Shown here piece by piece: positions 4,371 through 6,717 of a DNA stretch of 40,080 bases. Each line of letters starts with the position of its first letter. The first letter of the stretch is position 1. The stretch is from Vulcanimicrobiia bacterium. Its GTDB lineage: Bacteria > Vulcanimicrobiota > Vulcanimicrobiia > Vulcanimicrobiales > Vulcanimicrobiaceae. Location: the NCBI GenBank assembly GCA_024281075.1, contig JAMXLK010000046.1:1-40080 (forward strand), read 5' to 3'. The notes beneath the pieces are model-generated. The model made no database searches, was not told where the DNA came from, and worked only from the letters and a program-made list of their open reading frames with translations. A program made the position numbers and the translations under genes.

Positions 4371-4925
4371 ATGGAAGCACTGCCGCAGGTCGCCGATTCG
4401 CAACGCGTCTTTCAAGGGCGGGTTTTCCGCGTTCGAGTCGACCGCATTCGCTACCCCGACGGCGCTGAACACCGGGTCGACGTCGTCGAGCACGGCGCTT
4501 CGCTTGCGATCGTTGCGACGCCGTCGCGCGACGAGCTCGTGCTGGTGCGGCAGTATCGCCACCCCGCGCGTTCGATGCTCTGGGAGATACCTGCCGGCAC
4601 TGCCGAGCCGGGCGAAACGGTGGTCGATGGCGCCCGGCGTGAGCTGCGGGAAGAGACCGGCTTTTCGGCCGCACGAATCGCGCCGATCGGATCGTTTTGG
4701 ATGACGCCCGGCTTCTGTTCGGAGCTCATGCACTTCTTCCACGCGGACGAGTTGTCGGCGGGCGAGCCGTCGTTCGATGACGACGAGCGCATCGAGCTCG
4801 GCGTCTTCACCATTCGCGCGGCATGGCGGTTGGTCGCTGACGGAGTTGCCGACGCAAAAACCGTCCTAGCTCTGCTTTGGCTGCAGGGCGGGGAAGATAA
4901 AATTGGAAGTGACTTTGGTCGATAG
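4371..4925 (+). CDS. Nudix hydrolase, ADP-ribose pyrophosphatase type
   Basis: A 184-residue cytosolic hydrolase of nucleoside-diphosphate-linked compounds, most like the ADP-ribose pyrophosphatase (NudF) group. The Nudix box is complete: G-TAEPG-E, then the REL-REE-TGF core (about residues 76-98). It is preceded by the typical LVRQYRHPARSMLWEIPAG segment, which positions the adenine side in this group. The SFWMTPGFCSE loop after the box is also typical. The ATG at 4371 is 42 bases from the divergent membrane-protein start at 4328. The following gene begins 103 bases later on the same strand. Confidence 0.88.
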   Translation: MEALPQVADSQRVFQGRVFRVRVDRIRYPDGAEHRVDVVEHGASLAIVATPSRDELVLVRQYRHPARSMLWEIPAGTAEPGETVVDGARRELREETGFSAARIAPIGSFWMTPGFCSELMHFFHADELSAGEPSFDDDERIELGVFTIRAAWRLVADGVADAKTVLALLWLQGGEDKIGSDFGR

Positions 4926-5028: not shown

Positions 5029-5301
5029 GTGGACATACCTAGCGACATTGATGCCGTTCTCAAACGACTGCTGGAGCGCAATCGTGATGGCGAGCACTCA
5101 GTGCTGGCGCCTGAAGACGAGAGTTACTTGAACTCGCTGATTGTATCGGTTCGCGGAGGACGCCGCGCGGTGTTAATCGTCGAGGATGCCGACGAGCATC
5201 TCCGTTATATGTTCAGCAACGCCACGCGGGCGGAAGCCGTCACGATGTTGGGTAAAGTCGTCGAAGCGACTGGTCGAAGACTCGCCGACGGAGACGATTA
5301 G
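5029..5301 (+). CDS. Small soluble protein, unknown
   Basis: 90 residues, starting MDIPSDIDAVLKRLLERN. The GTG at 5029 is chosen because GGAGG (5018-5022) lies 6 bases upstream; an adjacent GTG at 5026 is the alternative. The protein is acidic with a predicted helix at each end and a beta-rich centre (LIVSVRGGRRAVLIVEDADEHL). It has no signal peptide, membrane segment or cysteine. I do not recognise it. It ends 6 bases before the stop of the convergent serine-hydrolase-like gene, with no room for a terminator between them. Confidence 0.7.
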   Translation: MDIPSDIDAVLKRLLERNRDGEHSVLAPEDESYLNSLIVSVRGGRRAVLIVEDADEHLRYMFSNATRAEAVTMLGKVVEATGRRLADGDD

Positions 5302-5307
5302 CCCATT

Positions 5308-6717
5308 TTAGGAAACTAACGTAAGACCGTCGATCTTCCCGTTCGGCGCGACTTCGAACCTGTAACGGTATTGTGCGCGCGGGAAGCGCACTAAAAACTC
5401 GTAGACGGTATCGCCGTTGGGCTCGACCGTACTCGAGATCGGCACCATCGCTTGCAGCCGTCCAAGGGCGGCGATGTTTTCGTGCGCCACGAGATCGTCG
5501 GTCAGGTACGCGCTGAACCCGGGCGTCAGCTCCGAGCGGTCGAGCCGGCGTGATGCCAAGCGCGCAAGCCACTCTTTCGCTCTTGCGACAACGGGGTTGT
5601 CGAGCTCGGCGGACTTCCGCGGAACGAGGACGTCCAGAATGCGAGCGCCCACCGCTTCGGGAACGGTTACGCCGCGCGCCGCGTCGGCATTGGAAAGTAC
5701 GATGACGCCGACATGCTGATTTGGTAAGAGCGCATTGAACGCGCGATAACCCGGAAGCGTGCCGTTGCTCCACACGAACTCTTGACCGCCGCGCCGGTCA
5801 ACCACCCATCCCATGCCGTAGCGCGTCTGACCTTGGATCGTGGGCGGCGTGAACATCGTACGCATCGCATCGACGCGCAGCAGAACCGGCATCTCGATAT
5901 CCCATTTGGCAAGATCGTCGATCGTCGAGACCAATCCCGAATCGCCGCCCAGCCACGCGGGATCCCAGACCGGCGCGGGCTCGAATCCCGCAGCGGTCTT
6001 AACGTACCCGATCGCGTGCGCCGGGGAGATTCCGCTGTCGCCGGCGAGGAACGAATTGCCCATAACCAGCGGGATGAAGATGTGCTGCTCCAGGTAGTCC
6101 GAGAGCGTCACGCCGCTCGTGCGTTGTACGATCAGTCCCGCCAACAGATAGTTGAGCGGATTCTTGTCATAGACATTGCCCGGCGCGGCTCTGGGCTTCA
6201 TGGTGTCTACCGCGGCCAGAAGCGTCGCGAACTTGATCGTTTGCGTAAAGTCGTTCGGAATGCCCGGCGCACCAACGTAGTTGGGAAGCCCCGAGGTTTG
6301 CGTGAGCAGCTGCGCGATCGTTACGCCCGTACCGAGGCGGAACTCGGGTACGTACTTCGAGACGCTGTCGTCGAGCTTCAGTTTGCCGTCCTGCGCCAGC
6401 AGCAAAATCGCCGCCGCTGTAAATTGGGCAGTTAGGCCGCCGCAGAAAAACTCCGTCGTGGGGGTCATTGCGGCGTGCGGCGAGATCGTCGCAAAGCCGA
6501 AACCGCGGTCGTAGACTAATTTTCCGTCCTGGACGACCCCAACGGCAATCCCCGGTGTGCGGCCCGCGTGAATCTCGTCAATGGCAATGCGATCGATCCG
6601 GTCCGCGGTCGTCTTGGTGAACGCAACGGCGGTCTCGGCGCGAGCCGTTCCTGGTGCGACCTGAGCGGAAATACCGACGATTAAAGCCGTCGCAAAGAAC
6701 GCGGCAGAACGGGCCAT
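5308..6717 (-). CDS. Secreted beta-lactamase-fold (serine hydrolase family) protein with degenerate active site
   Basis: 469 residues: an N-terminal signal peptide (about 1-27, ending TARA), a beta-lactamase/PBP-like domain to about residue 350, and a C-terminal beta-rich extension. Family landmarks are clear: TPGIAVGVVQDGKLVYDRGFG, FTAAAILLLAQDGKL, IAQLLTQTSGLPNY, and NYLLAGLIVQRTSG. All three catalytic motifs are altered. SxxK is G94-L-T-A97, YxN aligns with K185-N-P187, and HxG is S317-N-G319. The fold looks intact, without frameshift, so it is probably a binding or regulatory protein rather than a hydrolase. A TATAAT lies 7 bases before the ATG (see promoter entry). Confidence 0.85.
   Translation of the reverse strand: MARSAAFFATALIVGISAQVAPGTARAETAVAFTKTTADRIDRIAIDEIHAGRTPGIAVGVVQDGKLVYDRGFGFATISPHAAMTPTTEFFCGGLTAQFTAAAILLLAQDGKLKLDDSVSKYVPEFRLGTGVTIAQLLTQTSGLPNYVGAPGIPNDFTQTIKFATLLAAVDTMKPRAAPGNVYDKNPLNYLLAGLIVQRTSGVTLSDYLEQHIFIPLVMGNSFLAGDSGISPAHAIGYVKTAAGFEPAPVWDPAWLGGDSGLVSTIDDLAKWDIEMPVLLRVDAMRTMFTPPTIQGQTRYGMGWVVDRRGGQEFVWSNGTLPGYRAFNALLPNQHVGVIVLSNADAARGVTVPEAVGARILDVLVPRKSAELDNPVVARAKEWLARLASRRLDRSELTPGFSAYLTDDLVAHENIAALGRLQAMVPISSTVEPNGDTVYEFLVRFPRAQYRYRFEVAPNGKIDGLTLVS

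Follow-up and report, generated by a model that had tools for sequence, protein, structure and literature searches.

A probably exported peptidase S12 homologue with replaced catalytic motifs and a likely history of repeated loss at one locus of Candidatus Eremiobacterota

The locus and its S12 gene

The window (the whole stretch of DNA analysed here, 40,080 nucleotides) is one contig of a 2.47-Mb genome, itself a Candidatus Eremiobacterota MAG, and the named orthologues likewise belong to Candidatus Eremiobacterota MAGs. The minus strand carries, in this order, infC, rpmI (visible as a short frame), rplT (L20; 6898–7257), an S12 gene (5308–6717), trmH, pheS and pheT. Between the S12 gene and trmH, the plus strand carries a NUDIX hydrolase gene (4371–4925), which like rplT served as a syntenic marker in the synteny comparison, and a conserved 90-aa ORF (orf90, also called o104; 5029–5301) that is convergent with the S12 gene. 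The S12 frame is open from an ATG at 6717 to a stop at 5308–5310 and comprises 469 codons for a protein of 469 aa. Pfam assigned a single family to this protein, PF00144 (E 1.6e-55, 189 bits), well above the curated cut-off of 27, which places it among peptidase S12 homologues, and its score of 65.6 against NCBIfam NF033085 (class C beta-lactamase) lay below the curated cut-off of 415. Among solved structures, the FmtA-like protein 4gdn, the Pyrococcus PBP homologue 2qmi and the alkaline D-peptidase 4y7p come closest to it in sequence. Residues 1–28 (6634–6717, minus strand) form a hydrophobic stretch ending in A-R-A that reads as a likely Sec signal peptide, and the aligned N-termini of orthologues are similar; the protein is thus probably exported.

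Thirty-seven S12 orthologues were found in 99 family genomes, at one locus with the order pheT-pheS-trmH-nudix-orf90-[S12]-rplT-infC, and the score drop from orthologues (E 1e-115 or better) to paralogues (1e-67) was sharp; an additional contig-edge fragment in genome G106 comes on top of the 37. orf90 was detected in 65 of the 99 genomes at E 0.001 and adjoins the S12 gene in 35/37 orthologues (33 of the 34 loci L071–L104, the window and G004), the remaining two ending at a contig edge. A profile search with orf90 returned nothing above threshold, Imm1 being a sub-threshold match only (E 0.066). None of the six non-orthologous S12 loci that were checked (L105–L110) had these neighbours. A common operon of the S12 gene with rplT was considered and is unsupported, the spacing between them varying up to several kb among genera.

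Replaced motifs on a predicted S12 fold

The register of the catalytic motifs was read from a phmmer alignment to 4gdn and from a MAFFT alignment of 55 rows. Both place GLTA at the SxxK position (residues 94–97; 6427–6438), KNP at the YxN position (residues 185–187; 6157–6165) and SNG at the HxG position (residues 317–319; 5761–5769), all on the minus strand. The catalytic Ser and Lys are replaced by G94 and A97, Tyr and Asn by K185 and P187, and His by S317, so that none of the three motifs of an active S12 hydrolase is complete despite the retained G319; G260, invariant in 22 active rows, is also gone and is Ser in the window protein. The sequence-only reading had proposed that three motifs are replaced in an intact frame, and GLTA, KNP and SNG are indeed found where it put them, although its claim for HxG stands for the His and not for the Gly, which makes this replacement partial. 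It had also named a shifted alignment as the finding that would overturn it; no intact set emerged, and the register is fixed because neighbouring columns are invariant (F99, S142-G143, N189, W316 and G323, each in 30/30 disarmed copies). The sole other S-x-x-K string found in the protein, S118-VSK (residues 118–121), was rejected as a displaced active site: it lies at a variable position, with Ser at 118 in one of the 30 disarmed and none of the 22 active rows, and the active rows have their SxxK at 94–97.

Structure prediction, which the same reading had suggested as a check, gave an S12 fold in which the catalytic residues are replaced. The AlphaFold2 model (15 rows) has a mean pLDDT of 73, and S12 structures matched it over residues 31–368; the class C-type fold is seen in the match to 2qmi (Z 34.1, rmsd 2.7, 315 residues), followed by 4gdn (Z 31.6), LACTB (7v21, Z 31.4), the R61 DD-peptidase (1ikg, Z 31.2) and DltE (8aji, Z 30.1). 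Some loops near the motifs fall below pLDDT 50 because only 15 sequences were used for the model. A chain of the mycobacteriophage Bxb1 tail tip (9d93) was also among the fold matches, and a literature search on it yielded nothing of use. The window protein therefore resembles active S12 proteins (2qmi, R61, 4gdn, LACTB) in sequence and predicted fold but differs from them in its replaced SxxK, YxN and His of HxG and in its small NTF2-like C-terminal domain. DltE of Lactiplantibacillus plantarum, an S12-type fold, has divergent motifs 2 and 3. Unlike the window protein, it keeps its SxxK (SIQK), according to the excerpt of its description (PMC10241514).

The C-terminal domain (residues 366–469; 5311–5622, minus strand), modelled alone, reached pLDDT 80 with an alpha plus four-strand fold. 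It appears to be NTF2-like, its best fold match being a weak one to the DUF3887 protein 4hyz (E 0.012, TM 0.62); no match in the fold search reached E 0.001, and the Pfam search of this domain had no hit. A stand-alone 141-aa protein with a signal-like N-terminus is encoded elsewhere in the same genome (L008:1474–1899, minus strand); it resembles only the C-terminal domain of the window protein (34% over residues 373–465) and has a DUF3887 hit below threshold.

Active-site states and the history of loss

The 37 orthologues fall into three states with respect to the catalytic Ser, Lys, Tyr and His (codes such as g1 for genera and f2 for families are working labels). Four are intact (SKYH; genera g36, g45 and g48), three lack the Ser but keep Tyr and His (AKYH in g2, GKYH and GQYH in g49), and 30 lack Ser, Tyr and His, among which only one (L076) still has Lys at 97. 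The substitutes in the disarmed rows are diverse: G, N, D, E, Q, H or A for Ser, A, M, R, K (the retained Lys), E, V or Q for Lys, K, N, D, E, S, P or A for Tyr, and S, Y, A, T, Q or D for His. Positions 94, 97, 185 and 317, with 7, 7, 7 and 6 different residues, lie in the 80th–89th percentile of variability. An orthologue search had been proposed in order to find relatives with the same substitutions; disarmed sites were found in 30/37, with differing replacement residues. Eighteen paralogues and f2 relatives, picked by similarity, were all intact (18/18), and a control that covered every one of the 27 reported PF00144 places of three genomes from the genus found six Ser-less ones, three of them from the window-type group and three from a second S12 group.

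The history of these states was examined with a maximum-likelihood gene tree (55 rows, motif columns removed) and a tree of seven neighbour genes (35 loci). In both trees the two intact g36 copies nest together with g49, which lost the Ser, and g51, which lost all; in a further neighbour-gene tree that included S12-free loci and a distant root, g48 and g45, both intact, branch near the base, followed by g2; the placement of g7 differs between the gene tree and the neighbour-gene tree. For groups that were picked after the first tree was known, AU tests rejected a single Ser-less clade with the neighbour genes (31 vs 4 rows, p 1.5e-5) and with the S12 gene (33 vs 22 rows, p 0.0012), as well as a single Tyr-less clade (neighbour genes, 26 vs 7 rows, p 3.5e-5; S12 gene, 30 vs 25 rows, p 0.0029). 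The disarmed members thus do not form one clade, as in a repeatedly arising, Ssd1-like pseudoenzyme, which without regain means at least four full decommissionings. When losses are taken as irreversible, these fall in g19, g7, g51 and the g1/g10/g13/g14 group, and in g2 and g49 the Ser would have gone while Tyr and His stayed. The loss had been called concerted in the sequence-only reading; same-locus relatives that are intact, Ser-lost or fully lost in several lineages point instead to a stepwise and repeated process.

It is distinctly improbable that the Ser was lost once, early, and later regained in g36. With free regain, parsimony requires at least two changes for each of Ser, Tyr and His, and four for Lys, and the two-change solution for Ser would fit such a history, as would the GCG codon (Ala) of g2 and g7, one step away from TCG. 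However, such a history would also require that Tyr, His, Asn and Lys persisted or came back on that backbone, and the Tyr-less rows, too, do not form a single clade; a simultaneous regain of catalytic residues seems implausible, although the Ser alone may have been regained. The g36 Ser codon, TCG, is the same as in g48 and the f2 outgroup.

Retention after the loss and the role that may remain

Purifying selection acts on the disarmed genes. For the 12 of all row pairs that passed the filters (dS <2, dN <0.6), pairwise dN/dS was 0.036–0.189 in nine disarmed pairs and 0.056–0.231 in three active pairs, these pairs being few and non-independent, with six of the nine disarmed pairs from a single clade. 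Among 22 columns invariant in the 22 active rows, S94, K97, Y185, N187, H317 and G260 are kept in 0–7% of the 30 disarmed rows and the remaining 16 in 77–100%, and the chance that all five catalytic columns would be among the lowest six is 2.3e-4. Additionally, 65 group-signature columns (invariant in the 7 Tyr-keeping orthologues and present in less than half of the paralogues) persist, on average, in 81% of the disarmed rows, with columns 265, 275 and 314 mostly lost. Relative to the neighbour genes, divergence was 1.34 in disarmed copies, 1.15 in those that keep the Tyr and 1.09 in the fully intact ones, a mild relaxation of the disarmed copies. Catalytic/C-terminal domain identity was 0.64/0.54 in Tyr-keeping orthologues and 0.57/0.39 and 0.48/0.41 in active paralogue sets, and in disarmed copies 0.54/0.56 across genera and 0.70/0.69 within g1; the f2 active set (0.69/0.66) and one close active pair (0.92/0.92) show no clear excess of catalytic-domain conservation. 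The window protein is thus an enzyme fold without catalytic residues that has been retained by selection, and the description of a retained secreted protein agrees with a gene that is kept, with probable export and with purifying selection after the active-site loss. A recent pseudogene is rejected by the dN/dS values and the open frames.

A decay in which a functionless former enzyme drifts towards deletion is quite unlikely. It would accord with the freely varying active site, with the mild acceleration of the disarmed copies and with the repeated absence of the gene: rplT lies within ~100 bases of orf90 in seven of nine S12-free loci examined beside orf90, two of these seven compact sites being from the window's own genus (L141 6461–6508 and L142 3833–3845, with o104–rplT gaps of 46 and 11 bases), so the gene is dispensable in some species. 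On the other hand, the listed orthologue matches contain no internal stop, dN/dS is well below 1, and across genera the 16 invariant columns of the scaffold are kept along with most of the signature ones. The other two S12-free loci (g41 and g3) have 2.5–3.1 kb between orf90 and rplT without an S12 match, and in a tenth (G062) the gene order is rearranged. This intervening content (L148 6551–9674 and L146 3153–5680) differs in these other genera, and the gap may be a spot where genes come and go.

Another possibility is that the protein is still an enzyme whose catalytic residues are new or have migrated. The excerpt of a review (PMC10211241) describes some pseudoenzymes with migrated residues, and K271, D283, D307, R309 and D362 are polar positions invariant in the disarmed copies; nevertheless these residues are common to the intact orthologues and so are not new, and the motif positions hold no conserved replacement nucleophile or base, which leaves this explanation highly improbable. 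Reuse of the old cleft as a pocket that binds a ligand (cell-wall peptide or D-amino acid) without catalysis, as in a sensor or lectin-like protein, is unlikely. The fold is kept and matches that of the Streptomyces R61 DD-peptidase with a peptidoglycan fragment, and some positions near the motifs are constrained, with Tyr at 183 in 28/30 and Pro at 187 in 22/30 disarmed rows. However, if the floor of the cleft still held a conserved ligand, its contacts would be expected to be conserved as well, and the positions that were once catalytic vary more than most in the protein, so ligand binding there becomes less likely and surfaces elsewhere are favoured; the binding job proposed from the sequence is thus unsupported as far as the old cleft is concerned.

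The preferred reading, to which we give a probability of about 60%, is that catalysis was lost repeatedly in an S12 enzyme that already had an older non-catalytic role, and that the protein acts outside its old catalytic centre. The window protein would then be secreted, would have the S12 (class C beta-lactamase/DD-peptidase) fold but no catalytic activity, and would act through surfaces outside this centre, most likely as a scaffold or partner-binding protein in the periplasm or at the cell surface. An active ancestor at this locus may already have had the non-catalytic role; when that role sufficed, hydrolysis would have been lost in separate lineages and the whole gene deleted in some. We infer the lack of activity and the export, and likewise the age and the nature (scaffold or partner binding) of this second role. 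Its age is suggested by the signature columns, which are common to intact members and mostly kept in disarmed ones, so that the retained role most likely predates the loss and the 'new' job proposed from the sequence is probably an old one. Catalysis specifically removed with the rest persisting, repeatedly across lineages, is the pattern that a bifunctional ancestor predicts. The odds appear slightly better than even that a secreted Eremiobacterota S12 hydrolase gained this role while active and that the role outlives catalysis, the latter dismantled at one locus in at least four lineages, some of them nucleophile-first, with intact, half-disarmed and fully disarmed orthologues coexisting.

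By analogy, the group is best read as a bacterial counterpart of the fungal Ssd1/Dis3L2 pseudonucleases, in which, according to the excerpt of that study, the active-site signature was lost at least four times, other parts are conserved and an older non-catalytic function was proposed (PMC8097288). Both are single orthologous groups with repeated loss of a signature and conservation of the rest, although Ssd1/Dis3L2 is an RNase of fungi with a non-catalytic role that has been tested in cells, whereas the window protein is a bacterial, probably exported S12 fold known from sequence. A structural role independent of catalysis is described for PBP 2B of Bacillus subtilis in the excerpt of its report, which makes such a role possible in a penicillin-binding protein; PBP 2B is of another PBP class, and its natural form is catalytic, only an engineered mutant being inactive (PMC5656894). 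The excerpt of a study on LACTB evolution, which classed proteins by the presence of the three motifs, holds no precedent (PMC2266909). Searches of the open-access PMC literature turned up no report of a serine-less S12 family in Eremiobacterota, and one may exist elsewhere.

Pseudoenzymes are usually met as end points, and here one bacterial locus preserves intact, nucleophile-lost and all-lost stages in separate lineages, so that the question of whether a non-catalytic job precedes the loss of catalysis can be tested by comparing orthologues. Caution is also advised with 'beta-lactamase' annotations in environmental genomes, which may cover proteins incapable of serine-mechanism attack on beta-lactams. 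A second nucleophile-less S12 group is found in the window's own genome (G000:C101; L173:1378–2541, minus strand), with Ser replaced by Ala and Lys by Phe; its gene is present in 15 of 18 genomes of the genus. It differs from the window protein in that its Tyr is retained and its degenerate site is fixed, NGA[LM]AF occurring in 14/14 orthologues that cover the site.
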